64,000 nt of DNA from a virus. The notes beneath the pieces were generated by a model that had not been told where the DNA came from, searched no databases, and saw nothing but the letters and a program-made list of their open reading frames with translations. Made by a program: the position numbers and the translations under genes. Below, one piece after another: positions 25,503 through 62,000 of the stretch (position 1 is the first letter of the stretch; each line of letters begins with the position of its first letter). Location of the stretch: the IMG/VR virus record IMGVR_UViG_3300008259_004660, positions 120,825 through 184,824 of that record; one strand, written 5' to 3'.

Positions 25503-27275
25503 ATGAGCAAACCAATCAGACTAACTGTTATAATTCCTTGTTACAACTTTGAAAAGTATGTAACACAAGCTATCGATTCTGTGTTGAATCAGAATGTGAA
25601 CTTTGGTATTGAAGTATTGATTGTGGATGATAATTCTACTGATAATACTTTCAACATCATAAATCAAAAATATGGATCAAACAATTTGGTGAAGATACAT
25701 CAGTCTCCAAAAAATCAAGGAATAACAAAGAATCTCAAGGACATGATGGATAAGGCGCTGGGCCAGTATCTGTATACAATGGACGGCGATGATTTCATCA
25801 TTGATATGAATTATCTTCAACGTGCGGTTGATTTTTTGGATAATAATCCAAAATATTCATTGGTATGTTCTGGCTACAAACTTTTATACAACGATGGAAC
25901 GATGTATCCCACAGAGGACGATCCTGCCGTATGGTCTGCTCCACGTGAAGACATATATCTCAATGATTTGCTCTCGGTGAATTATATTTCATTTGGCAGA
26001 GTATTTCGTAATTACAAGAATATCATAAAGCCTTGGATGCACGATGAACTGCATGAAGATTGGACTATCAATGCGGAAATATTGAAGAACGGCCCAGCCA
26101 GATGTGACAAGAATTATACAGGAATTTACAGAATAACAAAAGCTGGTCGCATAACTTCCATGAGCGAAGGACAGGTACACGAGAAGAACAGAAAAACTAT
26201 TGCCGCCATAAAGAGCAATCTTACACTGAAAACAATATCAATTGTTGATTCATTTGTACACAATGAAAATGTTAAAGTTAAGCTTGAGAGATGCATTAAA
26301 TTTTTGAAAGAGGATGGGCATGAAATTTTGCTGGTGTCCAATACTCCTGTGGATAAGCATATTATACAAGATGTAAAATTTTTCATGTATGATAGCAGAA
26401 ATCAACTATTCAAGCAGGAATATGAGACAAAAAACACAGTTGATTTTTGGCGTGCATTGAATGGTAATTTGGAAGTACATGATATTGTTACCGCAGTGCA
26501 AAAGCACGGTCTCAGTGTTCTTATCAATCTATTCAATGCACTACATTATGCAAAACAACAGGGATATACACATTTTCAAAGATTTGAAGTCGATGATTTG
26601 TTTGGTGAAAAATCAAGATCTTGGATCAAGCGAGTTCCAACATATGTACTTGAAGAAGATAAACGAGGATTGATATATTACAATTATGAGAATTCTCCTT
26701 CTGATATTTCGTTTCACTATTTCTTCTGTGAGATAGATTATTTTCTAAAGAAGATAAGCCGCATAACTTGTGAGGAAGATTATGTGAAGTATCTGCATGA
26801 CTATTATGGTAACAAGGAATTCAAGATTGTAGAAGTATTCATGTATGATCAATTAAAGAAGAATGGCGACAAGGAAATATTACAGAAGACTGGAAGAGAA
26901 ATGAAGATTGATTTTTTCGACACGAAATGGAACACAGAAACTTCCGTAAGTAATTTTGAAACAACATTCTTTGGCTGCACCACCAAGGTGTATGAAGCTA
27001 GAAATTGGAATTCTGTGGCCAGAGAGTTCAATAAGAGGGACGATTATGTGTTGGTAACATATTCATACAATGATACACCTATAAAACGCATAATTGATGT
27101 TGAAAAACATGATGGTACCAGAGAAACAATCGAGCAGTCTGTACATGCAGCTGGTAGTTGGGTATGGCATGTTCTGTCGCCAAATTCAAAAGCAGTTTCA
27201 GTTTATCAAGACGGTAATCTATTATACAATCAACAAATAAAAAATCTTGAATCTTGGGCTGGATTCAGAAGCTAA
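25503..27275 (+). CDS. GT2 glycosyltransferase with second GT-A-like domain
   Basis: A 590-residue protein. Residues 1-240 are a standard family 2 transferase: 'TVIIPCYNFEKYVTQAIDS', 'VLIVDDNSTDNTF' near 39-51, 'YLYTMDGDDFI' near 90-100 and 'HDELHEDWTI' near 180. From about 245 there is another domain with its own 'SIVDSFVHNENVKVKLERC', 'EILLVSNTPVDKHII' and 'HFQRFEVDDLFG' near 356-367, which looks like a second, divergent GT-A fold. The C-terminal 100 residues are beta-rich. A tandem arrangement suggests processive or two-sugar addition. It starts two bases after the upstream stop. Confidence 0.75.
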   Translation: MSKPIRLTVIIPCYNFEKYVTQAIDSVLNQNVNFGIEVLIVDDNSTDNTFNIINQKYGSNNLVKIHQSPKNQGITKNLKDMMDKALGQYLYTMDGDDFIIDMNYLQRAVDFLDNNPKYSLVCSGYKLLYNDGTMYPTEDDPAVWSAPREDIYLNDLLSVNYISFGRVFRNYKNIIKPWMHDELHEDWTINAEILKNGPARCDKNYTGIYRITKAGRITSMSEGQVHEKNRKTIAAIKSNLTLKTISIVDSFVHNENVKVKLERCIKFLKEDGHEILLVSNTPVDKHIIQDVKFFMYDSRNQLFKQEYETKNTVDFWRALNGNLEVHDIVTAVQKHGLSVLINLFNALHYAKQQGYTHFQRFEVDDLFGEKSRSWIKRVPTYVLEEDKRGLIYYNYENSPSDISFHYFFCEIDYFLKKISRITCEEDYVKYLHDYYGNKEFKIVEVFMYDQLKKNGDKEILQKTGREMKIDFFDTKWNTETSVSNFETTFFGCTTKVYEARNWNSVAREFNKRDDYVLVTYSYNDTPIKRIIDVEKHDGTRETIEQSVHAAGSWVWHVLSPNSKAVSVYQDGNLLYNQQIKNLESWAGFRS

Positions 27276-27279
27276 CAAT

Positions 27280-29403
27280 ATGAAAGTAATTAATGTAAAT
27301 CCGGGCATACTTCCCATTCCACCAAATGGATGGGGCGCAATCGAAAAAATCATATGGGATTATCATCTCCAACTGCAAAAAATTGGAGTACACAGTGAGA
27401 TAAAATACCTTAACGAAATCGAATATGACGATAGCACAATTGTACACGTACATGTGGCAAATTTGGCTAACATGTTTCACGAGAAAGGTGTACCTTATAT
27501 TTTTACTATCCATGACCATCATGCATATGTTTATGGAAAAGATTCTCCAGTATTCAAAGAAAACTTAAAAGCCATAGAAAACAGTGTATTTTCATTATCA
27601 CCATGCAAATATTTGCTTCCATATTTTGGTAGCAAAAAACTAAGATATTTTAGTCATGCTGTAAATACCGATGTTTTTACATTCAATAATCGTCATAGAC
27701 ACAATCCACTGAAATTGCTTTGTGTAGCTAATAATGGATATGCATATAACCAAAGTGTGGATAGAAAGGGATTTGGAATTGCAATACAAGCAGCAAAAGA
27801 ATTAGGTCTTCCAATCACAATTGCTGGGCCAAAAAATAATGACAACTTTTTCAAGACCCTTGACCCAGAACTAAACAACTATTCCAAGCTAACAAAACTG
27901 TATGATTTGGATGAAAAATGGTTGGTAAATTTGTACAACGAAAACGATCTGTTCCTTCATTTCTCTGAATTGGAAGCTGGACATCCGAATCTAACATTAT
28001 TGGAAGCAATGGCGTGTGGTCTTCCGGTTGTTGGAACTTTTGAGGAAAAAGAGTATGATGGCATGGTAGTTTCCGAAAGAAAATTTGAAAATGCCATAGA
28101 ATCAATTAAATATGCTGATCAAAATTATGATTTATTGAGAAATCATGCATTAAGCAATGCAAATAAAAATTCATACGCTAACAGAGTACATGGTTTGGTC
28201 AAACTATACAGTGAATATAGAGAGCGTATTTTCAGCAAGCAACTTGAAGTTGCATACAGTAACACCAAGATAACATATACTGAAGCGAAAAATAGAATCA
28301 AAGTAACATTTGATGACGGTGCAAAAGTTGATATATCTGGTGCAGTTCAGAAAAAATACAGAGTAAAATTCATAGATGGTCTTACCAACATGGTTGTATA
28401 TCAAACTGATATATACAACAACATGTGGGCCACTACAAATACCAAGTACTACAACAAGTGGTTGGTAGAAGTGTTTGATATCACCGACGGCATTGAAGTG
28501 TTGGAATATTCCGAGGCAATGGATCTAAAGAATCGCACAGTAAAAGTTGTATTCGACAGTGAAAGTTTGGGAGATATTCTTGCGTGGATCGGCGCCGTCG
28601 ATGAATTTCAAAATAAACATCAATGCAAGATGTATTGTGTGATATTCAACAAGTACTTGCGTGCTTTACTTGAAAAAAATTATTCAAACATAAAATTTTT
28701 GGCTGTTGATGTTTACGCCGAAGAATATTATGCAAAGTATAAGATAGGATGTTTTGATTCAAATGGATATCATCCATATATTCCAAAGGATCCGCGCACA
28801 TTGAATTTGTGTTCAATTGCAAATTGTATTTTAGGTTTAACAGATGTTGAACATAAACCAAAGCTGAATATTGACAGAAAGAAATACAGTAAAAATAAGA
28901 AATATGTATGTATTGCTGTGCAAAGTACATGTCAGGCAAAATACTGGAACAATAAGAATGGTTGGAACAATGTGGTCAAATATCTTAAATCTCAAGGATA
29001 TGAAGTATGGTGTATAGACAGATTCAACAGCTTTGGCACCAAAGATAATATGAATTATATACCAGACGGTTGCATTGATAAGACCGGAGACTTTCCGTTG
29101 GAAGAACGCATGGCTCAGTTGGCTGGTGCAAAATTTTTCATTGGACTAAGTTCTGGTCTTTCGTGGGTGGCGTGGGCGGTAGGTGTGCCAGTTGTAATGA
29201 TTAGTGGATTTACAAAGGCATATAATGAGTTCTATACGCCGCATCGTATCATAAATGAAAATGTATGCAATGGCTGTTGGAACGACGTTAATGTGAAGTT
29301 TGACCGCTCTGATTGGTTATGGTGTCCATATAACAAGAACTTTGAATGTTCTACTCAAATATCTGTGGATAGAGTGCTGTCTGAAGTTAAAAAGTTGATA
29401 TAA
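27280..29403 (+). CDS. GT4 glycosyltransferase fused to TibC/BAHT-type O-heptosyltransferase domain
   Basis: About 707 residues. The ATG at 27280 is preferred over 27247, which overlaps the previous gene. Residues 1-320 are a GT4-type transferase ('INVNPGILPIPPNGWG', 'AGHPNLTLLEAMACGLPVVG' near 235). From about 325 to the end it matches the autotransporter heptosyltransferase (Aah/TibC, BAHT) family: a beta domain, 'SLGDILAWIGAVDEF', 'VCIAVQSTCQAKYWNN' near 540, 'FFIGLSSGLSWVAWAVGVP' and the iron-binding cysteines C663-x2-C666, C682 and C690. BAHT enzymes put heptose on Ser residues of adhesin repeats. In a phage, the obvious candidates are the Gly-Ser-Thr fibres at 53-64 kb. The gene closes the glycan module. 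Confidence 0.85.
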   Translation: MKVINVNPGILPIPPNGWGAIEKIIWDYHLQLQKIGVHSEIKYLNEIEYDDSTIVHVHVANLANMFHEKGVPYIFTIHDHHAYVYGKDSPVFKENLKAIENSVFSLSPCKYLLPYFGSKKLRYFSHAVNTDVFTFNNRHRHNPLKLLCVANNGYAYNQSVDRKGFGIAIQAAKELGLPITIAGPKNNDNFFKTLDPELNNYSKLTKLYDLDEKWLVNLYNENDLFLHFSELEAGHPNLTLLEAMACGLPVVGTFEEKEYDGMVVSERKFENAIESIKYADQNYDLLRNHALSNANKNSYANRVHGLVKLYSEYRERIFSKQLEVAYSNTKITYTEAKNRIKVTFDDGAKVDISGAVQKKYRVKFIDGLTNMVVYQTDIYNNMWATTNTKYYNKWLVEVFDITDGIEVLEYSEAMDLKNRTVKVVFDSESLGDILAWIGAVDEFQNKHQCKMYCVIFNKYLRALLEKNYSNIKFLAVDVYAEEYYAKYKIGCFDSNGYHPYIPKDPRTLNLCSIANCILGLTDVEHKPKLNIDRKKYSKNKKYVCIAVQSTCQAKYWNNKNGWNNVVKYLKSQGYEVWCIDRFNSFGTKDNMNYIPDGCIDKTGDFPLEERMAQLAGAKFFIGLSSGLSWVAWAVGVPVVMISGFTKAYNEFYTPHRIINENVCNGCWNDVNVKFDRSDWLWCPYNKNFECSTQISVDRVLSEVKKLI

Positions 29404-29430: not shown

Positions 29431-32400
29431 ATGGACATTTCTATAACCAATCTCAAAAAGTATGTTTTTGAGCCTAAGACAGAGTCTTTGCGACTAAAGC
29501 GTGCCAATGAGATATTGGGGCAGGGAATGATTGCTACGGAAAAAGTGGATGGCACAAAACTTACTCTTGTTCGTACTAATCAGACTGATCCGAATGATTA
29601 TACCAAGAATTGGGTTGTAGCATATAAGGGAACTGTATTATATCCAAAAGAGTTTGCATACCTTACTCCACAGGGAAAAAAAGATATATCTCAATCATCT
29701 GTTGGTATAGGCCAATATGCTTTGATTTTTGATCATTTGGAAAAAATCAATAACAAGATTGCTAGTATTCCAAAAAGCACGGAGTTCAGTGTTGAATTTG
29801 CGCAGAACAAGGATACTCTCACAAGAACATATGTTCAGAAAGGTGGAATGTTCTTAAGAAGTTATGGTGAGGTGTCATATCGTATTGTTGGTGGTGGGTT
29901 GAATACTGTTCCGAAACAAGAGATCACAGACTATACCAACGTAAAAAGAATGGCAGATCTTTTGGAAATTAGCGCGTTTCCTATTTTCTTTCAGGGCAAA
30001 ATAACAAGAGAAAATGTAGCAAAATATCCATCAATTGCGCCAAAAATGATGAGCGCCGATTGGAATAATCCATTGGATGTGTTAACCAAGTTTTCTGATG
30101 CTATGCTGTCTATACCATCTACTCTTGGTGGTACAACGGAGGGCGTGGTACTGAAACTTGATAATGGAAGCTTTTACAAAATTGTTCAAGCTGACCAATA
30201 TAGCTCTGATGTAAGAGGTGCTAAGAAAGATTTGTATAAACTTGAGCCAGAAGCGGCCACATCATATTTCCAACAGATCAGAGCACTTATTCAAAAAGTA
30301 TTTGATACCATTGGCACGGATGGAAAGACAGAAGAAGATATCATATCCGACACAAACTTTTACATTGCCAAAAATGAAAAAAGCTTGGCTAAATTTTTTG
30401 ATGCATTGCAGAAGATTGCTGGAAACAAAAAGAACCTCGTACAGATCAAGGATGATATTCACGACACTGTTCGTCTTATGACTTCAAAGCAGGAACTCCT
30501 TGGGTCAAAAACAAAATCAATCGCGCTTCTTCCTATTGCTGGCAAACCACTACACATTGGACATTGGAAACTGATTGAAAAGGCGGCAAATGAAAATGAT
30601 AATGTTGTGGTCTATACATCAACAACCGACCGTGTGCGTAAAGGAGAATTTCCGATATATGGCGATGATTTTGTGCAGATATGGAGTGATATGCTCATTC
30701 CATCATTGCCAAAGAATGTAAAAGTGAAATTTGTTGATTCTCCATTAAGATCTGTCATGCATGAACTTGGATGGTTTGAACAAAGACTTACTCAAGACGC
30801 TGCAAATGTACCAGTCATTAATCTATATTCAGACAAAGAGGATATTGAAACAAATTTCAAGCAAGAAGATCTGAACAAGTATCCAGAATTATTGAAAGCT
30901 GGAAAGATCAATAAAGTTGGCGTAGAAAGAACAAGTACGGTCAATGTCAGCGGCACAAAGATGAGAGAATTCTTGCAGAACAATGACAAGGACTCCTTCA
31001 TGAAATATTTACCTCCTATATCAACCAAGGATAAAGAACAAATATGGAATATTCTTTCATCTCGCAGACCAAGTGATCTTGCTGAAATAAATCCATACGC
31101 TGTATTGGCTGAAAAACTGATTAATGAAGTTGCAAATGAAATATTGAATGAAGGCGGATGGAGAAATCCAGAGACACAAGAATGGGAAGTTACACCAAAG
31201 ATGGTGGCAAAGATCGTGGAAGACACTAACAAATTTTTGAATGATTTCAATGCATGGTCTGGATTATCCAAGTTGTCAACCAAAGGTCCGACAGGAAGTG
31301 GAAAATATTACAAGAACGACTTGAATGATCCAAGTATAACTTATGGAGATATTGATATTCAACTTGTATTGCCCGTTGAAAGCAATGAAAGAAAAAATCA
31401 ATTAGAAGCCAATAAAATTTTTGGAGACAAGATCCGTGAGTTCATAAAGACCAAAAAACCAAGCTATATTCACGACGCAACAAATGATCCAGATTTTGGA
31501 ATTGGATACTTGATATTCAATGTGGATGGTAAAAAAGTTCAAGTTGATCTTGTACTATCATATACTGTTTCAGCTGATTGGACGAGTGTAAGAACAACGC
31601 CAGAAAAAGGATTGAAGGGATTTGTCACAGGAATGATGTTAAGTGCATTGAGTGACACATTGAATGTTGTTCTTGGGTCAAGCACCAATCCGTATATCAA
31701 CACTGTTGATGGAAAGGTTGTATCATCCTCAATCAAGAAAGATGCTGTGCAAAAATTCCTAAAGCCAAATGAAGTATTTGCCGAGATTGTACGATTTTAT
31801 GGTGAAATGGCGGACATTGAAAACCCAGACTTATCTTTATTGGTTGGTTATATGGGCCTTGATGCCAACGACCCTTCATTAAAAAAGAAATGCCAAACCG
31901 TGGTTGCTTTGGCAAATACACTTGAAAAGAATGGAATATTTGACGCTGGAGTCATAACCTCCAAGGATGGTATAACAATCAAAAGCAGAAAACAATTTGT
32001 TGATCGCGTAAGAACCACATACATCGATATGATGCAGCGAGCAAAAACAGCCAAAAAACTTGAAAAAGCACAAACACCAAGCGCCATGAGAACAATAGAA
32101 AAAATAAAAAATCATGCTGATCTGGGAATACAGATGGCAAACGAACTTATCAAAGAACATTATACACTTCTGATGGAATCTGGTAAATCCATAGCCGCCG
32201 TGGACCCAAAAACGCCAAAGATGGTAAATGGTCAGCCAGCACAGGCAACAACCAAATTAAGAATTGTTGATCCGCAGGGCAAGGATGTGCATTCAGCAGT
32301 GTCAAAGGACATCAAGGAACTTGTGTATGTATTGAATGCCAAGGTCGGTTTTTGGAAAAAGAATAATCCGTACATTGAAAATGGATTTATATTCAATGGT

Positions 32401-33333
32401 AGTTCACAATTTCTAATGGATCCAAACAAGTTTGGTGTGTTGAGCAAATACAAAGATTCTTTTGGTGACATAGATGTTATCATTCCAAAATCAAAATTGG
32501 ATGCTTTGACATCATTTTTGGACAGCATTGATGACAATAAAGCTGATTGGAATCCGACAACTCAAAACAGATTGTCTAGTAAGTTTTATTATGTTGGACG
32601 CACGAAGAGTTATGCATCCATTCCAGATCAACTTGTAACACTTTGGTATTATGATCCAATGAAGCAAGTTGTTCAAGTGGACTTTGAAGGTGATGAAATG
32701 TTTCTTGATCCGCAAGGATATGAAAAGCCAAGCGAGTGGACAAAATTCAGCAAAGATTCTCCGTGGGAAGATTTGACCGTAGGTATCAAGGGATTGGCTG
32801 GGGCATTAATGCTTCGCTCATTAGCAAGAGCAACAACAGTATTACCAAATGCAGTTGTGTTGACGCCGGGCGCAGTCAAGAAAGTTCAGTCTGGTGCAGT
32901 CAAGGAACTTACCGATAAGGAAGTTACTAAAGCAGCACAGCACAGTATTCCATCTGCATACACATTAAATACTGGCGGTGGTGGTACTGGTATACGTAAG
33001 GCATACGAATTAGTAAAGACAATGCCATATAATGGGAAGATGGTTGATGCATATAGATTTGTGGAAGCCAAAGAAACAAAACCAGAAGACAGAATCACGG
33101 ATGTTGGCAGAATATTTGAAATATTGTTCAAAAAGAAAGCATCGCCTGAAGAAAGAGCTGAATTTCGCAGCTATCAGGGACTGTTAAGACTAATGAAGAA
33201 ATATTTGGACAAGAAAACCATCGACATTGCTATGAATAGATTCACGGAAGTTTTGGCTGGCGAAGGTTTAAATCCAAAGGAATATGCTTCTGTGCAAAAG
33301 GCTACGAAAGATATTCTTGGATTGTCTATATAA
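29431..33333 (+). CDS. Four-module ligase-like / HIGH / double pol-beta nucleotidyltransferase protein
   Basis: A 1300-residue protein with four nucleotidyl-transfer signatures in one frame. (1) Residues 1-270: nucleic-acid-ligase-like adenylation domain, motif I K38-V-D-G, 'STEFSVEFA' near 110-120, motif IV 'GTTEGVVLKL' near 232-241 and 'FYKIVQ' (motif V). (2) About 360-540: NMNAT/cytidylyltransferase-like domain with H375-I-G-H378 in 'PIAGKPLHIGHWKLI' and a late 'TSTVNVSGTKMREFL', like the (I/V)S(G/S)TxxR element of that superfamily. (3) About 605-760: pol-beta-type signature G622-S-G-K, D640-x-D642 and D706. (4) About 980-1100: G990-S-S, D1013-x-D1015 and D1084. I know no characterised protein with this order. 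RNA or nucleotide repair, or a nucleotide-based counter-defence, are possible roles; the function is unknown. Confidence 0.75.
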   Translation: MDISITNLKKYVFEPKTESLRLKRANEILGQGMIATEKVDGTKLTLVRTNQTDPNDYTKNWVVAYKGTVLYPKEFAYLTPQGKKDISQSSVGIGQYALIFDHLEKINNKIASIPKSTEFSVEFAQNKDTLTRTYVQKGGMFLRSYGEVSYRIVGGGLNTVPKQEITDYTNVKRMADLLEISAFPIFFQGKITRENVAKYPSIAPKMMSADWNNPLDVLTKFSDAMLSIPSTLGGTTEGVVLKLDNGSFYKIVQADQYSSDVRGAKKDLYKLEPEAATSYFQQIRALIQKVFDTIGTDGKTEEDIISDTNFYIAKNEKSLAKFFDALQKIAGNKKNLVQIKDDIHDTVRLMTSKQELLGSKTKSIALLPIAGKPLHIGHWKLIEKAANENDNVVVYTSTTDRVRKGEFPIYGDDFVQIWSDMLIPSLPKNVKVKFVDSPLRSVMHELGWFEQRLTQDAANVPVINLYSDKEDIETNFKQEDLNKYPELLKAGKINKVGVERTSTVNVSGTKMREFLQNNDKDSFMKYLPPISTKDKEQIWNILSSRRPSDLAEINPYAVLAEKLINEVANEILNEGGWRNPETQEWEVTPKMVAKIVEDTNKFLNDFNAWSGLSKLSTKGPTGSGKYYKNDLNDPSITYGDIDIQLVLPVESNERKNQLEANKIFGDKIREFIKTKKPSYIHDATNDPDFGIGYLIFNVDGKKVQVDLVLSYTVSADWTSVRTTPEKGLKGFVTGMMLSALSDTLNVVLGSSTNPYINTVDGKVVSSSIKKDAVQKFLKPNEVFAEIVRFYGEMADIENPDLSLLVGYMGLDANDPSLKKKCQTVVALANTLEKNGIFDAGVITSKDGITIKSRKQFVDRVRTTYIDMMQRAKTAKKLEKAQTPSAMRTIEKIKNHADLGIQMANELIKEHYTLLMESGKSIAAVDPKTPKMVNGQPAQATTKLRIVDPQGKDVHSAVSKDIKELVYVLNAKVGFWKKNNPYIENGFIFNGSSQFLMDPNKFGVLSKYKDSFGDIDVIIPKSKLDALTSFLDSIDDNKADWNPTTQNRLSSKFYYVGRTKSYASIPDQLVTLWYYDPMKQVVQVDFEGDEMFLDPQGYEKPSEWTKFSKDSPWEDLTVGIKGLAGALMLRSLARATTVLPNAVVLTPGAVKKVQSGAVKELTDKEVTKAAQHSIPSAYTLNTGGGGTGIRKAYELVKTMPYNGKMVDAYRFVEAKETKPEDRITDVGRIFEILFKKKASPEERAEFRSYQGLLRLMKKYLDKKTIDIAMNRFTEVLAGEGLNPKEYASVQKATKDILGLSI

Positions 33334-34017: not shown

Positions 34018-34372
34018 TGTAATTGATGCATTGGCTCATAGGGTGAAATCAAGATTTTCATCGTCCGATGGGAAATGTGAATACATGGCCCAAGAACTTG
34101 TAAAGGAACTAAGAAGCAGAGGAATAAGAGCGGAGCATGTGATGGGGATATTCACATTGGATGAACCGGGAGCATGGAAATATAGATCGGATGAAGATGA
34201 AAATTTGGATGAATATCAAGTCAATCACGATTGGGTAAATGTTGAAGGAAAAATATTGGATATATCAGCGGACCAATTCAAGAAATATGTTTATGTGAAC
34301 ATACCTGATGTGGTGTATATAAGTTACTCTGATCCATTATACAGATATTACGAGGAACTTGGACATGTCTGA
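33983..34372 (+). CDS. Transglutaminase-like (Cys-His-Asp) small protein
   Basis: A 129-residue protein with the spacing of a transglutaminase/papain-like core: C32 at the start of a helix ('DGKCEYMAQELVKELRSRG'), H82 in 'NHDWVNVEGKILDI' and D93 downstream, which matches the Cys...HxWV...D arrangement of that fold. It may be a peptidase, a deamidase or a catalytically inactive relative. The ATG lies 35 bases inside the preceding gene, and its 3' end overlaps the terminase start. I do not know of an equivalent in T4. Confidence 0.5.
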   Translation: MEKLAKFLPQADVIDALAHRVKSRFSSSDGKCEYMAQELVKELRSRGIRAEHVMGIFTLDEPGAWKYRSDEDENLDEYQVNHDWVNVEGKILDISADQFKKYVYVNIPDVVYISYSDPLYRYYEELGHV

Positions 34373-36011
34373 GGGTAAGACTAAAAATCTCAAAGATGTA
34401 ATCAGAGAAGAATACATCAAGTGCGCCAAAGATCCAATATACTTCATGAAGAAGTATGTGAAAATCCAACATCCTACACGCGGCACTTTGCCATTTATCA
34501 CATACCCATTTCAGGATAAAGCATTGGAAAACTTTGTTCATCATAACCAAAATATTATTCTTAAAAGCCGCCAAATGGGAATTACAACATTGGTAGCGGG
34601 ATATAGCATATGGTTGATGACGTTTCATAATGACAAACAGATACTTTGCTTGAGTATTACACAAGAAACATCCAAGGCAATTGTAACCAAAGTAAGATTT
34701 GCAAACGATAATTTACCAAGTTGGTTGAAAGTACCAGCAGTTGAAGATAACAGACTATCACTGAAACTAAAGAATGGATCCGAAATTAAAGCAGCAAGTA
34801 GTGCTGGTACATCTGGTCGTTCAAGTGCATTGTCATTGCTCGTAGTAGACGAAGCTGCGTTTATTGATAACATAGAAGAAATTTGGTTATCATCCCAATA
34901 CACATTATCAACGGGTGGTAAAGCAATTATCCTATCAACTCCGAATGGCGTAGGTAATTGGTTCCATAAGATGTGGACAGAATCCGAGGAAGGATTGAAC
35001 AGTATGAATAGAATCAGTCTTCCTTGGCATCTTCATCCAGAGCGAGATCAAAAATGGAGAGATGAACAAACCAAACTCTCTGGAGAAAGAGGAGCCGCCC
35101 AAGAATGTGATTGTGAATTCAGCACATCTGGTAACACTGTAATTGAAATTCCAATACTTGAATGGTACAGCAAGAATCAAGTAACAGAACCAATTGAAAA
35201 ACGGGGAATGGATAGAGGCTATTGGATATTTAAATATCCAGAAGCTGGAAAATCATATATGGTGAGCGCCGACGTAGCCCGTGGTGATGCATCAGATTAT
35301 AGCGCCGCTCAAATATTAGATATTGAAACAATGGAGCAAGTGGCAGAATATAAAGGAAAATTGCCAACCAAAGAATATGCTCGTGCGCTAATCACAATGG
35401 CAACAGAATACAATAATGCACTGCTTGTGATAGAAAACGCAAATGTTGGTTGGGCAGTCATACAGGAAGTATTGGACAACAGTTATCCAAATTTGTTTTA
35501 TAGTTCATCGGATCTTCAATATGTTGATGTCGAAAATCAAATGACCAACAAGATAAATGCGCAAGAAAAGAAGATGACTCCGGGGTTCACCACTTCAAAC
35601 AAGTCTAAGCCTCTTCTAATATCAAAGCTTGAAAGCTATTTCAGAAATAAGGAAGTTATTATTCATAGTAAAAGATTGGTTGAAGAATTACAAGTGTTTA
35701 TATGGAAGAGTGGTGCTGTGTCATCAAAGGCAGAAGCAATGGATGGATATAATGATGACCTTGTTATGTCTTTGGGAATTGGACTTTGGATAAGAGATGT
35801 CGCGCTAAGATTAAGAAAAGACTCAGAAACTATAACAAGAACCATACTTGATAGAATAGGGTCTACTTCAAATGACCAAGTAAAAGGCAACATGCAATCC
35901 TTGTATAGAAATACAAATCCATTTGGAACGCAGCCAAACCCGTGGCAAATGAAGGTTGGTGGTCATGGCTCAAGTCAGCAACCAATCGACTTAACATGGT
36001 TATTAAAATGA
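34365..36011 (+). CDS. terL: Terminase large subunit (gp17-like)
   Basis: The packaging motor ATPase and headful nuclease. Two in-frame starts, 34359 and 34365, both overlap the upstream stop; the second gives MSEGKTKNLKDVI and about 548 residues. Numbering from 34359: Walker A is S70-R-Q-M-G-I-T-T77, the deviant type typical of T4-like terminases; Walker B is 'LLVVDEAAF' with D164 and E165; the coupling motif is 'ILSTPNG' near 190; and the RNase H-like nuclease starts at 'MVSADVARGDASDYS' with D305 and has a later acidic 'YNDDLVMSLGI'. Length is close to gp17 (610) minus its extra N-terminus. Confidence 0.9.
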   Translation: MSEGKTKNLKDVIREEYIKCAKDPIYFMKKYVKIQHPTRGTLPFITYPFQDKALENFVHHNQNIILKSRQMGITTLVAGYSIWLMTFHNDKQILCLSITQETSKAIVTKVRFANDNLPSWLKVPAVEDNRLSLKLKNGSEIKAASSAGTSGRSSALSLLVVDEAAFIDNIEEIWLSSQYTLSTGGKAIILSTPNGVGNWFHKMWTESEEGLNSMNRISLPWHLHPERDQKWRDEQTKLSGERGAAQECDCEFSTSGNTVIEIPILEWYSKNQVTEPIEKRGMDRGYWIFKYPEAGKSYMVSADVARGDASDYSAAQILDIETMEQVAEYKGKLPTKEYARALITMATEYNNALLVIENANVGWAVIQEVLDNSYPNLFYSSSDLQYVDVENQMTNKINAQEKKMTPGFTTSNKSKPLLISKLESYFRNKEVIIHSKRLVEELQVFIWKSGAVSSKAEAMDGYNDDLVMSLGIGLWIRDVALRLRKDSETITRTILDRIGSTSNDQVKGNMQSLYRNTNPFGTQPNPWQMKVGGHGSSQQPIDLTWLLK

Positions 36012-36075: not shown

Positions 36076-37989
36076 ATGGCTGATCAAAAAGACTTATTTA
36101 GTAGACTGAAAAAGATGTTCTCTACGGACGTTATTGTTCGTAATGTGGGCGGAAAGAAAATCAAAGTTGTAGACACAGATGAAATACAATACGCAACAGA
36201 CAGAAATAGTTTGCGCGACCGTTTTAATCGCTTAAGAAGTTCAACATATAATCTTCATAATCGCGATTTGAGCATGGCATATCAGTCAAGCCGTCTTGAG
36301 TTATTCAGAGATTATGATGTAATGGACATGGATCCTATCATTGCATCTGCATTGGATATTTATAGCGATGAATGCCTTGTACCAAGTGAGTTTGGTAATG
36401 TTCTTACTATTCGATCCAAGAATGAAAATATCAAGCGCATTCTTCATAATTTGTTTTATGACATAATGAATGTTGAGTTCAACATGTGGAGTTGGACTCG
36501 TAACATGTGCAAATATGGAGATTTCTTTTTGCGCATGGAAATATCTCCCGAGTATGGTGTGTATCTTGTTCATCCAATCAGTCCATATGAAATCACACGC
36601 ATAGAAGGTAGTGATCCAAAGAACATCAATTATGTAAAATACCAACATGATGGTGTTGGCGGCGGAATGGAATATGAAAATTTTGAAATCGCACACTTTA
36701 GACTTTTGAGCGACAGCAATTTTCTTCCATATGGAAAATCGATGGTTGAACCAGCACGCCGTGTATGGAAGCAATTGAGCTTAATGGAAGATGCCATGCT
36801 TATTCATCGTATCATGCGTGCACCAGAAAAGAGAATATTCTCAATTGACGTTGGCAATATTCCTCCTGCTGATATTGACACGGCGATGCAAAAAATCATC
36901 AGCCAAGTCAAGAAAGTTCCATACATTGATGAGAAAACAGGAGATTATAATCTAAGATTCAATCTTAACAACATGATTGAAGACTTTTATCTGCCTGTTC
37001 GTGGCAGTGACAGTGGAACAAAGATCGATACGTTGCCGGGAATGGAATTCACTGGTATTGATGATCTTGAGTATATTAGAAACAAAATGATGGCCGCACT
37101 CAAGATTCCAAAGGCGTTTCTTGGATATGAAGAAGGATTAAGTGGCAAAGCGACACTTGCGGCGGAAGATGTAAGATTTGCTCGTACTATTGGGCGCATT
37201 CAGCGCATTCTTATTTCCGAATTAACCAAAATTGCAATTGTTCATTTGTATGTTCAAGGATATCAAGATGCATCTCTTGTTGACTTTGAATTGGAACTAA
37301 GTAATCCAAGCACAATCTTTGAACAAGAAAAATTGGAAATTTGGCAAAATAAAATCAATCTTGCATCGGATATGAAAGATAGCAATATGTTTAGCAAGAC
37401 ATGGATGTATAACAATATATTCAATATGTCAGATGTTGACATTGAAACATTGCAGAATGAGGTTGTTGGTGATAAAAAAGAAGAATGGAGACTGCAACAA
37501 ATTACTGATGAGGGCAGCGATCCTGCGTTTGCAACTGGTGGAGGTGAAGGTGCTACTGGTGGAGGTGGTGCAGCACCTGAACTTGGTGGCGGTGAAGGCG
37601 GTGGGGCGGAGGCTGGTGGAGAAGCTGGTGGATTGCCTCCGCTTGAAGAAGAACAGAAAGCCGACGAAGCCATTATTGACGAAGAAACAAGAAAAGATCG
37701 TGAACGTGGAAATCGCGATCAAACAGGAAACAAGGAAAAATATACATCTTCGCACACCAAAAACTTTGGGGAAGATCCTCTTGGTAACAAAGAAAACAAA
37801 GAAAAATCAAAAACAGAACGCAGAACTCGTCATATATACAGAAGCTCTGGATTGTCTTTAGAAGAAGATTTGAAGAATATAAAAAACTCCTTGAAAAGCA
37901 AGCATGTTAATAAACAAAGAAAGGTAATTGTAGAAGGAAAATCCATATTAGATGAATCCAATATCATTGAAGAGGATAAACCTCTCTAA
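36076..37989 (+). CDS. Portal protein (gp20-like)
   Basis: The dodecameric head-vertex protein through which DNA is packaged and to which the neck attaches. The 637 residues start with 'KDLFSRLKKMF', followed by a T4-type core: 'RDYDVMDMDPIIASALDIYS' near 77-96, 'WSWTRNMCKYGDFFLRME' near 140-157, 'VHPISPYEITRIEG' and 'KIPKAFLGYEEGLSGKATLA' near 345-364, the hallmark of gp20 proteins. After about residue 480 there is a Gly/Glu-rich low-complexity tail ('GGGEGATGGGGAAPELGGG') and then a charged helical tail, longer than in T4. It is followed by four small genes before the protease. Confidence 0.9.
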   Translation: MADQKDLFSRLKKMFSTDVIVRNVGGKKIKVVDTDEIQYATDRNSLRDRFNRLRSSTYNLHNRDLSMAYQSSRLELFRDYDVMDMDPIIASALDIYSDECLVPSEFGNVLTIRSKNENIKRILHNLFYDIMNVEFNMWSWTRNMCKYGDFFLRMEISPEYGVYLVHPISPYEITRIEGSDPKNINYVKYQHDGVGGGMEYENFEIAHFRLLSDSNFLPYGKSMVEPARRVWKQLSLMEDAMLIHRIMRAPEKRIFSIDVGNIPPADIDTAMQKIISQVKKVPYIDEKTGDYNLRFNLNNMIEDFYLPVRGSDSGTKIDTLPGMEFTGIDDLEYIRNKMMAALKIPKAFLGYEEGLSGKATLAAEDVRFARTIGRIQRILISELTKIAIVHLYVQGYQDASLVDFELELSNPSTIFEQEKLEIWQNKINLASDMKDSNMFSKTWMYNNIFNMSDVDIETLQNEVVGDKKEEWRLQQITDEGSDPAFATGGGEGATGGGGAAPELGGGEGGGAEAGGEAGGLPPLEEEQKADEAIIDEETRKDRERGNRDQTGNKEKYTSSHTKNFGEDPLGNKENKEKSKTERRTRHIYRSSGLSLEEDLKNIKNSLKSKHVNKQRKVIVEGKSILDESNIIEEDKPL

Positions 37990-53017: not shown

Positions 53018-56000
53018 ATGAGTAACGAACTAATTGTCAGAAATGGCTTGATTGTATCTGGTACATCCAGCTTTTCTGGCAGCGTATTCATAAATGGAAA
53101 TACTGTTGTAACAGGTTCTATCATCAGTAATCAAGTTGCATACTTAACAGCAAGCCAAGCTTTGACAGCTTCACATGTTCTTGGATTGCCAGATACATCA
53201 AGTTGGGCTCTTAATGCTGTATCTGCTGCCTTTTCAGAATATGCAGTAAGTGCATCATATGTTATTGGCGCACCTGATACAGCAAGTTGGGCATTAAATG
53301 CTGTTTCATCTTCATACGCATTATCATCTTCATATGCTGTTTCGTCATCTTATTCATTATCGGGGTCGTATGTTGATACTGCTTCATATTCAAATTATGC
53401 AGTAAGTGCGTCATATGTTATTGGTGCTCCAGATACTGCTTCATGGGCATTGAATGCTGTTACAGCTTCTTATGTTGAATATACAAATGTAGATAAGATA
53501 ACATCAACATCACAATTTGCTGGAACAGCAAGTTATGCTCAAAGAGCAAACAGCATCAAAAGTGGAATTGACATTGATGTAACTTCAATAACAGCATCAG
53601 CAATACGTGTTGATAATCTACATGTTGTTACCATAACAAGTAGTGTAAATTTTGTTTCTGGTAGCACAGACTTTGGAACAAGTATAACTGATACACATGT
53701 TTTCACAGGCAGTCTTTTTGTTCAAGGAAACATAAATGTTGAAGATGGTTATGGTATACAAGGAACTTCGTCGTATGCTGTAACAGCAAGTTATGCTTTT
53801 AACACCAGTACATCTGGTACTAGTGGCACAAGCGGAAGTAGTGGAAGCAGTGGCAGTAGCGGAACAAGTGGTAGTAGTGGAAGTGCTGGTACAAGTGGTA
53901 GCAGTGGCACAAGTGGCACCGATGGATCAAGTGGTAGTAGTGGAACGGGAGGAAGTAGTGGTAGTAGTGGAACAAGTGGTAGTAGTGGTAGTAGTGGCAG
54001 CAGTGGATCAAGCGGATCATCTGGTACAAGTGGATCATCTGGTACAAGTGGATCAAGTGGAACAACGGGTACGAGTGGTAGTAGTGGAAGCGGTGGTACA
54101 AGTGGAACCAGCGGTTCGTCTGGAACAAGCGGAACGAGTGGAAGTAGTGGTACAAGTGGAACAGACGGATCGTCTGGATCTAGCGGCAGTAGTGGATCTT
54201 CTGGTACAAGTGGAAGTAGTGGTACAAGTGGAACTGGTGGATCGTCTGGTTCGAGTGGAAGTAGCGGTTCTTCGGGAACAAGTGGATCAAGTGGAACTTC
54301 TGGCTCAAGCGGTACTTCTGGATCAAGTGGTAGCAGCGGTAGTAGTGGTAGTAGTGGAACAAGTGGAAGCAGTGGAACAAGTGGTAGTAGTGGTAGTAGC
54401 GGCACTAGCGGCAGCAGCGGAACAACAGGAACAAGTGGTAGCAGTGGATCTTCTGGTACAACTGGAACGAGTGGAAGCAGTGGAAGTGCTGGTACCAGCG
54501 GAAGTAGTGGAACCAGTGGTACAGATGGTTCAAGTGGAAGTAGTGGCAGTGCCGGTACAAGTGGCAGTAGCGGCAGTAGTGGAACCAGCGGTTCAAGTGG
54601 TAGCAGCGGTACAAGTGCAACATCGGGATCAAGTGGTACTAGCGGAAGCAGTGGTAGTAGTGGATCTTCTGGTACAAGCGGAAGCGGAGGAACAAGCGGC
54701 AGTAGCGGAAGTAGTGGTACTACTGGAACAAGCGGTAGTAGCGGTACCAGTGGAACAGATGGTAGCTCTGGGTCAAGTGGAAGTGCTGGAACAAGTGGTT
54801 CTAGTGGATCTAGTGGAAGTAGTGGTACGAGTGGATCAAGTGGAAGTAGTGGAACTAGTGGCAGCAGCGGCAGCAGCGGAACAAGTGCAACTTCTGGATC
54901 TTCTGGAACAAGCGGTAGTAGTGGCAGCAGTGGAAGTAGTGGAACCAGTGGCTCGTCTGGATCGGCAGGTACAAGTGGATCTAGTGGAAGTGCTGGTACA
55001 AGTGGTAGCAGTGGCACAAGTGGTACCGATGGTTCCAGTGGTAGCAGCGGAAGCAGCGGATCGTCTGGTTCTTCTGGTACCAGTGGAAGTAGCGGAACCA
55101 GTGGGTCTTCTGGTACAAGTGGAAGTAGCGGTACCAGCGGTAGTAGTGGAACAAGCGGAAGCAGCGGTAGCAGTGGTAGTAGTGGAACCAGTGGTAGCAG
55201 TGGAAGCAGCGGCAGTAGTGGAAGCAGTGGTAGTAGTGGAACAGCAGGTTCTTCTGGTAGCAGTGGATCAAGTGGATACACACCAGAAAACATGGTTACA
55301 AGTTCTTTCCAACTTTCAAACGATGGCGGTCTTGCATTCAGCAGTGCAAACAATGTTACATTTGGTCAAATCACCGCTTCTATTATCACTGTATCAACAT
55401 TATATGTTCAAAACATAACAAGCAGTACAGAACTTGTAACTGGAAGTTTTGTTGTAAGTGGATCCTTTGATGCAATCGGTGGAGTAACAGGAAGTCTTCT
55501 TGGTACAGCAAGTTATGCTCTACAAGCTCTGACCGCTTCATATGCACTTAATGCTGAAGGATCAAATAAAACACAACTTACTGCTTCAACAATATTATTT
55601 ACAGGAAGCGCGACAAATCTTTCACTAAATGTTTCATCGTCGGGTGATGTTGCCATAACTGGCATAAATAATGGAGATATTGTTGTAATATCAGATTCAA
55701 CAAGTTCAACTCCATTATTTGGAATTGAAAGTGTAAACAATCCTTTATTCAGTGTATATAATAGCGGAAATGCATATTTGAGTGGAAGCTTGTCTGCTTC
55801 ATTATATGGTACAGCAAGTTGGGCAGTTACAGCAAGCTATGCTTTAAGCTACAGTGGAACATCTGGTAGTAGTGGCACAAGCGGAACATCTGGTTCAAGT
55901 GGCAGTGCTGGTACAAGTGGTAGTAGTGGAACAAGTGGAACAGACGGTAGTTCGGGTTCGTCTGGAACTGGTGGATCAAGTGGATCTTCAGGTAGCTCTG

Positions 56001-59000
56001 GTACGTCTGCAACTTCTGGAACTGGTGGATCAAGTGGAAGTTCTGGAACTAGTGGAAGTAGTGGAACAGGAGGTTCTTCTGGAAGCAGTGGAACAAGTGG
56101 AAGTAGTGGTAGCGGTGGAAGTAGTGGTTCAAGTGGAACTTCTGGTTCATCAGGAACCAGTGGAAGCAGCGGAACTTCTGGTACAGATGGTAGTAGTGGA
56201 AGTGCTGGTACCAGTGGCAGTGCAGGTACTAGTGGTACAGACGGATCAAGTGGTACCAGTGGTAGTGCAGGTACGAGTGGAAGTAGTGGTACCAGCGGTA
56301 GCAGTGGTACAAGTGGAACTGCTGGATCAAGCGGAACGTCTGGGTCAAGTGGTTCTTCTGGTACAACTGGAACTTCTGGAAGCAGCGGAACTGCTGGTTC
56401 AAGTGGAAGTGCAGGAACATCGGGAAGTGCTGGATCTTCTGGTTCGGCTGGAACAAGTGGTAGTAGTGCAAGTGCCGGTACCAGTGGCACAAGCGGCACA
56501 GATGGATCAAGTGGTAGCAGTGGTTCTGGTGGATCAAGCGGAAGTAGTGGCACAGCTGGTAGCAGTGGAAGTAGTGGTACAAGCGGTAGCAGTGGTTCGA
56601 GTGGAACCAGTGCAACCAGTGGAAGTAGCGGTACATCTGGTACCAGTGGAAGTAGCGGTACATCTGGTTCAAGTGGAACAAGCGGTACTGATGGTAGCAG
56701 CGGAAGTAGTGGTAGTAGTGGATCTTCGGGATCAAGTGGTACTGGTGGAACAAGTGGTAGCAGTGGTACCACAGGAAGTAGTGGTAGTAGTGGTAGCGCA
56801 GGAAGTAGTGGTAGTAGTGGTTCATCTGGATCAAGTGGTACAGGAGGAAGTTCAGGAACAAGTGGAACCAGTGGTAGCAGTGGAACGGGTGGTAGTAGCG
56901 GATCAAGTGGTACTAGCGGAACAGATGGTAGCAGTGGTAGCAGCGGCAGTGGAGGAAGTTCTGGAACAAGCGGTACAGATGGTACCAGTGGTAGCAGTGG
57001 AACTTCAGGTACTTCTGGTTCAAGTGGAAGTGCAGGAACTAGTGGCAGCAGCGGAAGTAGTGGCACTACTGGAACAAGCGGTAGTAGCGGTACCAGTGGA
57101 ACAGATGGTAGTAGCGGTAGTAGTGGAACAAGTGGGTCTACTGGTACAAGTGGTAGCAGCGGATCAAGTGGTAGTAGTGGTAGTAGTGGAACAACAGGAA
57201 CAAGTGGTAGTAGTGGTACAAGTGGAACATCTGGTTCGGCTGGCTCTGCCGGATCAAGCGGTAGCAGCGGTAGTAGTGGAGCAGGAACAATTTCTGGTGG
57301 AACAAGCAACTATGTGGCAAAATTTAGCAATGCCACAACACTGACTACAAGTTCAATCTTTGATGGTGGATCTGGAGTTGGTATAAATAAATCTACAGCA
57401 AATTCCACACTTGATGTAAATGGTAATACAATAATCACTGGATCATTGACTGTTACCCAGAACGTAACCGCTTCAAACATTGTTGTTACAAATCTTTATG
57501 TACAAAACATAACTGCTTCCACGGAAATTGTAACAGGAAGTACTCAGTTTGGAACATTGCTTTCAAACAAGCATATGTTCACTGGAAGTGTTGAAATAAC
57601 AAGTTCATTAAAGGTAAATGGTGATTTTTCAGTAAATGGAAATACAGGCAGCTTGGCTTTCTCAAGCAACGCAGATACTTTGGAAATAACTGGTTCATTA
57701 TTATTAAGTGGATCAATGTTTGTTACAGGAAGTATCTCTGTAAATGGTAGTATAACTGGTTCACTTTTTGGCACGGCTTCGTATGCATTAAACGCACTTA
57801 CTGCTTCATACGCTTTAAGTTATAGTGGTACGAGCGGTAGCAGTGGAACCAGTGGGTCTTCTGGTACGTCTGGTACAAATGGAACCAGTGGATCAAGCGG
57901 AACTGGCGGAACCAGTGGAAGCAGTGGTACAGGTGGATCTTCTGGAAGTAGCGGAACGAGTGGTAGTAGTGGAAGTTCTGGTACAAGTGGTACGAGTGGT
58001 AGTAGTGGAACATCTGGAACAGATGGTAGTTCTGGATCAAGCGGTTCAAGTGGCTCCAGTGGATCATCTGGTACTTCTGGTAGCGCAGGAACATCGGGAT
58101 CTGCTGGATCGGCTGGAAGTAGCGGTAGCAGTGGAAGTGCTGGTACAAGTGGTACGAGTGGTAGTAGTGGAACATCTGGCACGGACGGAAGTAGTGGAAG
58201 TTCTGGTAGTAGTGGTACCGCTGGTACTTCTGGTAGTGCAGGTACTAGTGGAAGTAGTGGTTCGAGTGGAACATCTGGAACAGATGGAAGCAGTGGTAGT
58301 AGTGGTACTTCTGGTAGTGCCGGTACTGGTGGTTCAAGTGGAAGCAGTGGTTCATCTGGAACGAGTGGGGAAGGCGGAAGTGCAGGAACATCTGGTACAA
58401 GCGGCAGTGCTGGTACGAGTGGAACGAGTGGTAGTGCTGGAACTGCTGGATCCAGTGGTAGTGCGGGAACATCAGGTTCTGCTGGATCAGCTGGAACAAG
58501 TGGTAGTAGTGGAAGTGCTGGTACAAGTGGTACCAGCGGTTCAAGCGGAACATCTGGAACCAGTGGAAGTAGTGGATCCAGTGGAAGCAGCGGATCTTCT
58601 GGAACGAGTGGTAGTGCTGGTACTTCTGGTAGTAGTGGAACAGCTGGAACAAGTGGATCGGCCGGTTCAAGTGGTTCTTCTGGAAGTGGAGGAAGTTCTG
58701 GATCGGCTGGAACATCTGGTACAAGCGGCAGTTCTGGTACAAGTGGTACAAATGGCTCAAGTGGTACTTCTGGTACTAGCGGATCTTCTGGAACGGGTGG
58801 AACTAGTGGTAGTAGTGGAAGTGCTGGCAGTGCAGGTAGTGCAGGATCAAGCGGCACAAGTCCAATAATAACTGGAACAAACTTCACGCTTGCATTGTTC
58901 AGCGGAAGTAATGGATTGAGTAGCAGTGTGTTAAGTCAATATGATAATGGATTATATTTGACTGGATCGTTGAATGTAAGTGGATCAACTCTACAAGTTG

Positions 59001-62000
59001 GTAATAACACATTACTTGGTAACACATCACTTAGTGGTAGTTTAACAATTTCTGGTGCATTTGCCACAGCAACACCAAGTGTAAATATTTTCGGAGATAT
59101 TTCACAGACTGGATATCTCAGATTTAACCCAGTTAATACAAATATAAATCAAAGCATTTCCGCTTCATACATTTATGTCTCTGGTAGTACAAATGATTTA
59201 TATTTTGCTCAGAATGGAAGTGGATACAGTAACAATACTCGTCTTCGTTGGTTGGAAGGAGTATTATATACTGGATTGCTAAATGGTGGATTGGTATCAA
59301 GCACAGTTGGTTCTACTACTTTCAATATATCTTCTGGTAGTGGTATAATTGTAAGTTTAAATGCTAGTTTAAGCACAGATCCATTTCCAACTGTAAAATA
59401 TGTAAATTGGGGAAATTACAATAATCAACCAATAACATACTCTGGCTCCGCCAAGTTGACATATGTTGGTATTGATTCGAATGGGGCAGTTGTTCAACAA
59501 GTTGAGCCTTGGGGTTCAACAAACATAGATCAATTTGACAGCCAAATATTACTTGGTATTGTGTTGCATTTGAGTGGAAGTATTTCATCGGGAGTATTTA
59601 ATTCACCACAAACAGCATATGGTAATTCTCAAAAATCAGACGACTTTTTCAGATCGTTTGGTCCATTAAAAGTAAGTGGGCATACATTGCAAACCAGTGG
59701 GTCTTCGCTTGGCCTTACAAAGGCTGGTGGTACAGCATACAGAGATGGTGCAAATTATGTTACCAACCCAAATCACCCATCAACGGTCGTTGAAAATTCT
59801 ATAACAACAAGTAAAATTTACAGATATTATGTGTCTGGATCAACGCCTATAATTGATACTGGTGTTGGTGCATCAGGTTATACCGCAATAGATCCAAATA
59901 ATTACAACAATAATGGAGTACTTACTTCTGTTCCTTCAAACAATTATACTATTCAGAGAGTATTTTGGACTCCAAATTCTCCAACTAATGCATTTGTAGT
60001 TTATTATGGAACTGCAACATATTCCAATTTGTTGACCGCAGTCAATGCCAAGGATAGTGAACCATTTTCAGAAGCTCCAGATACAGCCACCGATGCAATC
60101 TTCTTAGGTCATATTGTTGTAAAAGAAGGAACTACAAACCTAACTGTTGCAAATGATTGCACGATAATTCAAGGCGGACTATTTAGAAATATTGCAGGTG
60201 TTGGATCAAGTGGAACTGCTGCTCCTGTTGTAAATCTTTCTGGTTTGGGTGACGTTTTAATATCCGTACCAACAGACGGTCAACCTCTTGTATATGATTC
60301 AACAGCATTGAAGTGGAGAAACTTGTCTGCCATAACCGCTTCGTTGTATGGTAATGCATCAACGGCAACAAGTGCTTCGTATGCTACCACAGCAAGCTAT
60401 GCTTTCAGTTATAGCGGAACGTCTGGTAGCAGCGGCACAAGCGGAACTTCTGGTACAGCAGGATCTGCTGGAACTTCTGGTACAAGCGGAAGTAGTGGCA
60501 CAAGTGGAACAAATGGATCTTCTGGTACAAGTGGAACTAGTGGATCAAGCGGAACAAGCGCATCCGCTGGAAGTAGTGGTTCAAGTGGAAGCGCAGGAAC
60601 TGCTGGATCTAGTGGTAGTGCTGGAACAAGTGGCAGCAGCGGAACGTCTGGTACTGGCGGTAGCAGTGGAACATCTGGTAGTAGTGGATCTGGCGGTAGC
60701 AGTGGTTCAGCTGGATCGTCTGGATCAAGTGGCAGTGCTGGAACAAGTGGAAGTGCAGGAACATCTGGGTCAACAGGTTCGAGTGGAAGCAGTGGAAGTG
60801 CAGGTAGTGCGGGAACATCTGGATCAAGTGGTAGTGCTGGAACTGCTGGTAGTGCTGGTTCGGCTGGTACAAGTGGAACGAGTGGATCTTCTGGAAGCAG
60901 TGGAAGTTCTGGATCAAGTGGTACAAGTGGAACTTCTGGATCAAGTGGAACTTCTGGATCAAGTGGTAGTAGTGGAACAAGTGCTTCATCTGGAAGCAGT
61001 GGCACAAGCGGAGCAACGGGTGCATCTGGGTCAAGTGGTACAAGTGGAACTTCTGGCTCCGCAGGTTCTGCTGGATCAAGTGGTAGTAGTGGAAGCAGCG
61101 GTGCTGGAACAATATCAGGCGGTACAGCAAATTATGTAACAAAGTTTAGCAATGCGACTACATTGACCACGAGTTCAATATTTGATGGTGGTTCTGGTGT
61201 TGGCGTAAACAAATCATATGCTAATTCGACGCTCGATGTAAATGGAAACACAATCATCACAGGTTCGTTGAATGTTACTCAAAATGTGACTGCGTCAAAT
61301 ATTTTGGTGACAAATCTTTATGTCCAAAATATTACCGCTTCAACTGAAATTGTAACGGGTAGCACGCAGTTTGGTTCATTGCTTACCAACAAACATATGT
61401 TTACAGGCAGCGTTGAAATAACAAATTCATTGAGTGTATCTGGTCAGATATATGGAACATCTTCATATGCATTGACTGCATCATACGCGATGAATGCAGC
61501 GGGTTCAAATAATTCTGTACTAACTGCTTCAGCAATACTCTTTACAGGTAGTACAACAAATGTTTCACTTTATGTTTCTGCCTCCGGCGATGTTGTATTC
61601 ACGGGAACAAACAATGGAGATATATTTGTAATATCCGACTCATCAACCGCTGGTGATCCATTGTTCAGAGTTGATGATGGTGGAGTGACATTGTTTCAAG
61701 TTTATCAAGGTGGCAATGCATATTTGAGTGGAAGTTTAACCGCATCACTTAATGGAACTGCAAGTTATGCTGTTACTGCAAGCTATGCGTTGAGTTATAG
61801 TGGAACAAGCGGTAGTAGTGGTACAAGCGGAACAGGTGGCAGCGCAGGATCAAGCGGCTCTTCTGGATCAAGTGGCAGTAGTGGAACTACTGGTACAAGT
61901 GGCAGCAGTGGTACAAGCGGAGCTACAGGTGCATCTGGATCAAGTGGAACAAGTGGTACGAGTGGAAGTAGTGGTACTTCTGGTACAGGTGGTAGTAGTG

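Follow-up and report, generated by a model that had tools for sequence, protein, structure and literature searches.

The 64,000-nucleotide stretch analyzed here (the window; positions 120,825 to 184,824 of the virus record IMGVR_UViG_3300008259_004660) contains an ATG-started open reading frame (ORF) at 29431-33333 (+), which encodes a protein of 1300 amino acids with four nucleotidyl-transfer modules: an RNA ligase-like domain (module 1), a HIGH-superfamily nucleotidyltransferase (NTase; module 2), and two Pol-beta-type NTases, of family A (module 3) and family B (module 4). The ligase, HIGH, and Pol-beta B modules form a trio that recurs in phages, and module 3 is an optional addition, because natural shorter relatives occur without it. 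We slightly favor the reading, based on sequence, that the four-module protein is a virus-only machine that heals and seals RNA ends within one chain and thereby counters host tRNA cleavage.

The original prediction had placed all four modules in this single frame, and the motifs were found at the predicted residues, backed by conservation and folds. The first residues of the motifs are 38 (KVDG), 237 (EGVV), 375 (HIGH), and 508 (GTKM), and the two aspartate triads, D640/D642/D706 and D1013/D1015/D1084, lie where they had been placed. A scan of IMG/VR yielded 23 loci with relatives (L and G labels, such as L026 and G000, denote loci and records from the scans of this analysis). The full-length relatives, comprising 13 distinct sequences at 64-100% identity, all carry ligase, HIGH, Pol-beta A, and Pol-beta B in this order; with more than 12 distinct homologues sharing it, the predicted order is beyond chance. 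In a 13-row alignment, K38, D40, G41, E122, K242, G377, H378, S507, G508, D1013, D1015, and D1084 were conserved wherever the sequence was present, as were D640, D642, and D706 in every row keeping module 3. The ratio of nonsynonymous to synonymous substitution rates (dN/dS) was approximately 0.02-0.24, indicating purifying selection on all four modules, and in most comparisons the linker that joins HIGH to module 3 was more relaxed or faster evolving. The idea of a four-module unit held for the order kept in the full-length relatives but not for module 3, which is dispensable: it is missing from several relatives of 960-1072 amino acids, namely L026 (gap at residues 600-861), L028 (580-911), L056, L060, L062, and L063. 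Identities to the window protein also differed by module (ligase 92% and module 4 61% in L008; 72% and 87% in L034), a mosaic pattern that suggests a swapping of modules among lineages.

The AlphaFold2 model of residues 1-560, built with 38 homologues, had a predicted local distance difference test score (pLDDT) of 92.2 and a predicted template modeling score (pTM) of 0.88, and this model confirms two domains, an RNA ligase and a HIGH NTase. Foldseek against the PDB matched residues 1-560 to T4 Rnl2 (2hvr, E 6.6e-8; 1s68, 2e-5) and also to 6vt0 and 5cou; the closest folds to the ligase module were those of T4 Rnl2 and the Naegleria RNA ligase. In 38 divergent phage proteins, with identity down to 23%, the residues K38, D40, G41, E122, E237, G238, V240, K250, H378, and S507 were invariant. 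They include K38 of ligase motif I, E122 of motif III, EG 237-238 of motif IV, and K250 of motif V. Pfam gave marginal pantoate-ligase, RNA_ligase, and CTP_transf_like matches on the window protein and nothing past approximately residue 400, and among the 38 homologues, RNA_ligase was found in 18 and CTP_transf_like in 30. PF09414 scored 17.3 bits in the window protein, below its curated cut-off of 27, and 22.7 bits in L134, and module 1 is filed as Rnl2-like by its modeled fold, not as a Pfam member. In PHROGs, residues 1-400 correspond to phrog_27149 and residues 971-1277 to phrog_19290, both function-unassigned, with cytidyltransferase and nicotinamide mononucleotide adenylyltransferase (NMNAT) families between them.

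The HIGH part was matched by Foldseek to NMNAT (4yp5, 2.7e-4) and PPAT (5o0a, 4.1e-4), and its nearest profile matches in the PDB were NMNAT (9x6f, 1.6e-9), PPATs, and NadR. Its HIGH-superfamily features are the invariant H378 and S507 and an NMNAT/PPAT-type Rossmann-like fold match. The HIGH motif that had been predicted holds in its invariant H378, although the classic first H is lost in distant relatives. Module 2 shares its fold, H378, and the SGT/ISAT motif with NadR, NadM, NMNAT, and PPAT, and differs from them in being fused or linked to an RNA ligase, not to Nudix or NAMPT. It is the least explained part of the protein; its product could be NAD or another activated small molecule, or its target could be RNA 5' ends.

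In the C-terminal half, the Pol-beta superfamily motifs (GS, DxD, and the third D) were invariant in the homologues of both modules. The invariant residues were G622, S623, Y638, G639, D640, D642, Q704, D706, W717, K729, and G730 for module 3 (12 divergent homologues) and G990, S991, G1012, D1013, D1015, Q1082, and D1084 for module 4 (43 divergent proteins). Stand-alone homologues of module 3 elsewhere had 26-31% identity with an invariant catalytic triad, and tblastn gave no match to module 3 in cultured phages. The two domains were modeled together (residues 561-1300; pLDDT 84.6, pTM 0.57), and Foldseek against the PDB listed OAS1 at the top (E 0.008), followed by an editosome TUTase and Pol beta/mu; all matches were weak, none with E <0.001, and the modeled C half is consistent with the Pol-beta superfamily. 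Against viral protein models, three strong structural matches (2.2e-17, 9.3e-17, and 3.1e-10) carried uninformative names. BFVD A0A6J5TD12, a 1096-amino-acid uncultured phage protein named ParB/Sulfiredoxin, resembles the C half in structure (24% identity, 350 columns). By sequence, modules 3 and 4 are classed as two virus-only families. They share a GDID ... QVD ... KG pattern and were matched by deeper profiles with a probability of 87.6 over only 48 columns, while BLAST and shallow profiles returned nothing for a tandem duplication; common ancestry of the two modules is likely but unproven. Module-3-type NTases were also seen in proteins of approximately 570 amino acids (L204:4103-5821, L199, L202, L206, and L209). 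In L204, the one scanned, the NTase is fused to a chitinase class I-like domain, and the adjoining gene is weakly module-4-like with a DUF5661 tail.

We also considered whether the protein is a nucleotide-signal or protein-modifying effector, acting by OAS-like synthesis, by AMPylation, or as a packaged polyvalent protein injected with the DNA. The OAS1 match and the chitinase-like fusion of a module-3 relative point in this direction, and in portal-terminase phages Pol-beta NTases are among the domains of polyvalent proteins (PMC5512222). However, the OAS1 match is weak, and in many phages the trio consists of separate adjacent genes, unlike injected multidomain proteins, so we regard an effector as the least probable of the readings weighed here.

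Distant scans recovered dozens of divergent phages with ligase, HIGH, and Pol-beta B. Cultured Vibrio and Campylobacter phages encode ligase-HIGH and Pol-beta B in two genes, whose products are all annotated as hypothetical; the unannotated genes of Vibrio phage Va1 (QAU04508.1, QAU04506.1) and Campylobacter phage CP20 are homologous to these parts of the window protein but unfused, no module 3 was found there, and the genes lie far apart in Campylobacter phages. A Pol-beta B gene followed by a ligase-HIGH gene was found in 21 distinct cases, often overlapping or 4 bases apart, and Pol-beta B followed by HIGH-ligase in 3. Fusion as Pol-beta B-ligase-HIGH, an order unlike that of the window protein, occurred in 10 distinct proteins (990-1442 amino acids), and fused ligase-HIGH-Pol-beta B versions were also found. 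The three modules were encoded separately as ligase, HIGH, Pol-beta B (L084), as ligase, Pol-beta B, HIGH (L095), and as Pol-beta B, ligase, HIGH (L106, Xanthomonas phage X1). The middle of the Pol-beta B-ligase-HIGH fusions is a second, very divergent ligase, assigned by motifs, a short profile match, and cross-hits of the two ligase models in L079, L081, and L088; L094 has KVDG (K457), EG (676-677), and K689. In some loci, one partner of the trio lay outside the fetched flank. As the trio has been fused repeatedly in different orders, its members probably act together.

Variants of the Pol-beta B gene were also observed. L087:3805-6014 contains a tandem pair of Pol-beta B genes directly upstream of ligase-HIGH, which is another route to a two-NTase unit, and the Pol-beta B protein of L088 has an additional poly(A)/CCA polymerase head (E 1.5e-17).

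Relatives of modules 1-2 and of module 4 were absent from the matches of two scans, by short peptide patterns, of 85,000 bacterial and archaeal genomes, so rare or distant cellular copies are possible. A literature search returned no description of the trio or the four-module protein, although a survey of RNA repair may have mentioned the trio before, and within the reach of the searches made here the original statement holds that no characterized protein has this module order. The RNA ligase and its two enzyme partners recur, unannotated, across large phages, some of them cultured phages of Vibrio, Campylobacter, and Xanthomonas. The trio can already be tested through the unfused genes of cultured phages.

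Genes for a kinase and a phosphoesterase accompany the trio in some phages. In L140, L147, L148, and L154, the Pol-beta B and ligase-HIGH genes flank a member of a family of approximately 184 amino acids that has a Walker A motif, matches AAA_33, and resembles PNK-like P-loop kinases. AAA_33 kinases also lie just downstream in L080 and L072, and in L134 the kinase is fused to the N-terminus of the ligase. The AAA_33 family includes polynucleotide kinases. A calcineurin-like phosphoesterase (phrog_547) was present in 18 of the 57 divergent loci.

The kinase bears on a second explanation, NAD or coenzyme metabolism, in which HIGH would be a nicotinamide mononucleotide (NMN) adenylyltransferase restoring NAD after a host NADase defence and the P-loop kinase a nicotinamide riboside kinase as in NadR. 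The pairing of kinase and HIGH recalls NadR, the nearest PDB profiles of the HIGH part are NMNAT, PPAT, and NadR, and the window protein matches phrog_3462 (NMNAT). On the other hand, the kinase in L134 is joined to the ligase side and not to the HIGH side, and the constant ligase and Pol-beta partners are left unexplained. Of 24 carrier records, only 4 contain the nicotinamide phosphoribosyltransferase (NAMPT) family, which was not detected in the phage of the window (outside the window, stretches 1-120000 of its record were used). This explanation is considered quite improbable.

The record of the own phage is 184.8 kb and T4-like, with an SbcCD-like nuclease, primase, terminase, portal, prohead protease, and major head protein. 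It carries nine tRNA genes (L159, L162, L163; Leu ×3, Met ×2, Arg, Lys, Thr, and Glu) and a full-length transfer-messenger RNA (tmRNA) at L159:8603-8996 (+), equivalent to G000:C1:8603-8996 (Rfam RF00023, 95 bits, E 1.5e-35); tmRNA above the gathering score was also found in three other trio carriers (G001, G005, and G016). Counting carriers only, tRNAs are encoded in 18 of 23 records, with up to 38 per record. A phosphoesterase homologue lies elsewhere in the own phage (L159:6772-7440), not next to the four-module gene. Neither RlaP nor a CCA-adding/poly(A) polymerase head (PF01743) was detected in this phage.

Phage RNA repair uses a similar mix of enzymes: a ligase, a kinase, a calcineurin-like phosphatase, and the ligase-linked Pol-beta NTase RlaP (PMC7824862 section 3.4.9; PMC9503650 section 3.7.3), whose predicted role is to put back nucleotides that are lost when the anticodon is cut (PMC7824862; PMC9503650). 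The RNA repair reading is favored because a ligase with a template-independent NTase, a kinase, and a phosphoesterase is the signature of such repair. The abundance of tRNA genes in the carriers and the poly(A)/CCA polymerase head of one Pol-beta B relative also speak for it. The earlier idea of a repair or nucleotide-modifying factory is in line with the motifs and folds and with the repeated linkage or independent fusion of three modules in other phages, and the reaction of each module is one that we infer. Host anticodon nucleases, as part of a phage-triggered defence, would cut tRNAs; separate kinase and phosphatase genes, often adjacent in relatives, would heal the broken ends; and one or both Pol-beta modules would restore lost nucleotides at the 3' end. 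The ligase would adenylate the 5' phosphate via K38 and then seal, and HIGH would supply a nucleotide cofactor or adenylate a 5'-phosphate-bearing substrate (NMN, or the RNA end itself). Fusion would hold the intermediates on one particle. If this is true, the trio would give phages one more means, in addition to T4 Pnkp/Rnl and RlaP, of answering defences that cut tRNA.

Comparison with known systems shows both likeness and difference. The Rnl2-type ligase fold and motifs, and the kinase and phosphatase genes linked in relatives, are shared with T4 Pnkp-Rnl1/Rnl2, but here the ligase is fused to HIGH and Pol-beta modules and is far from Rnl2 in sequence. RlaP (PF10127, RNA ligase-associated Pol-beta NTase) is likewise a Pol-beta NTase tied to phage RNA ligases; it has no profile relation to the modules here, which have GDID instead of SDxD and a longer spacing from GS. 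Identification of module 4 as RlaP was rejected: PF10127 was absent from the 43 homologues, and the hhalign probability was <1% to both Pol-beta modules. Because module 4 is not RlaP and 4 of 26 carriers have RlaP independently of it, the trio would run in parallel to RlaP, with a Pol-beta family of its own. The bacterial Pnkp-Rnl-Hen1 complex is also a multi-enzyme RNA end repair particle (PMC4411300); the protein here shows no Hen1 methyltransferase and has HIGH and Pol-beta modules instead, in one chain.

Several observations weigh against RNA repair. A minority of loci link the kinase and phosphoesterase to the trio, and neither adjoins the four-module gene in this phage, whose record gave no AAA_33 match; a second RNA_ligase-like gene (G000:53196-53729) could perform repair instead. 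In Campylobacter phages, approximately 65 kb separate the Pol-beta B and ligase-HIGH genes. Large phages are commonly rich in tRNAs, and the HIGH module is without an established role in RNA repair. A bolder form of the proposal is a virus-only pathway of RNA repair or end modification, built on the ligase, HIGH, and a new Pol-beta family, in which HIGH works directly on RNA ends, for example by 5'-phosphate adenylation, as a new HIGH substrate class, with the window protein as the most condensed form; we consider it rather unlikely.

Modification of RNA 5' or 3' ends, by which phage or host RNA would receive a nucleotide tag or something like a cap, was weighed separately. Either HIGH or the ligase would place a nucleotide on the 5' phosphate, and the Pol-beta modules would tail 3' ends. 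All of these modules make nucleotidyl transfers, TUTases and OAS1 are among the best structural matches of the C half, and NMN chemically resembles a 5'-phosphorylated RNA end. However, the ligase module retains motifs I, III, IV, and V, as sealing enzymes do, and the linked kinase and phosphoesterase better suit end healing; we consider end modification unlikely.

The gene was originally described as beside the terminase. This is true of the window, where two small genes lie between them, but not in general; adjacency carries little functional weight because the gene position differs in other carriers. A role in DNA end processing, tied to replication, recombination, or packaging, could be read from this position upstream of TerL and the portal gene, and DNA ligases do belong to the covalent nucleotidyltransferase superfamily. 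Given that the fold matches RNA ligases and the location varies among carriers, we judge it very improbable. The coordinates are listed in Table 1.

Table 1. Coordinates of the four-module gene, its modules, and neighboring genes in the window
Feature	Position	Strand	Basis
Four-module protein, 1300 aa	29431..33333	+	ORF; full-length homologues at 64-100% identity; purifying selection
Module 1: predicted Rnl2-type RNA ligase nucleotidyltransferase domain (res. 1-~290) and helical segment to ~345	29431..30465	+	AlphaFold2, Foldseek, motifs
Module 2: HIGH-superfamily nucleotidyltransferase (res. 355-560), HIGH 375-378, SGTKM 507-511	30493..31110	+	Foldseek, profile, Pfam
Module 3: Pol-beta-type NTase, family A (res. 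575-880), GS 622-623, GDID 639-642, QVD 704-706; optional	31153..32070	+	Stand-alone homologues
Module 4: Pol-beta-type NTase, family B (res. 965-1285), GS 990-991, GDID 1012-1015, QVDFE 1082-1086	32323..33285	+	phrog_19290 E 2.5e-32
Neighbor: terminase large subunit TerL (context)	34359..36011	+	phrog_2 E 4.8e-45
Neighbor: portal protein (context)	36076..37989	+	phrog_213 E 3.7e-63

Two glycosyltransferase-type genes lie immediately upstream of the four-module gene (window 25503-29403), the second of which starts with TTG and overlaps the first. Farther along the window, a very large ORF of 3407 amino acids (53018-63241) is accompanied by long antisense ORFs.

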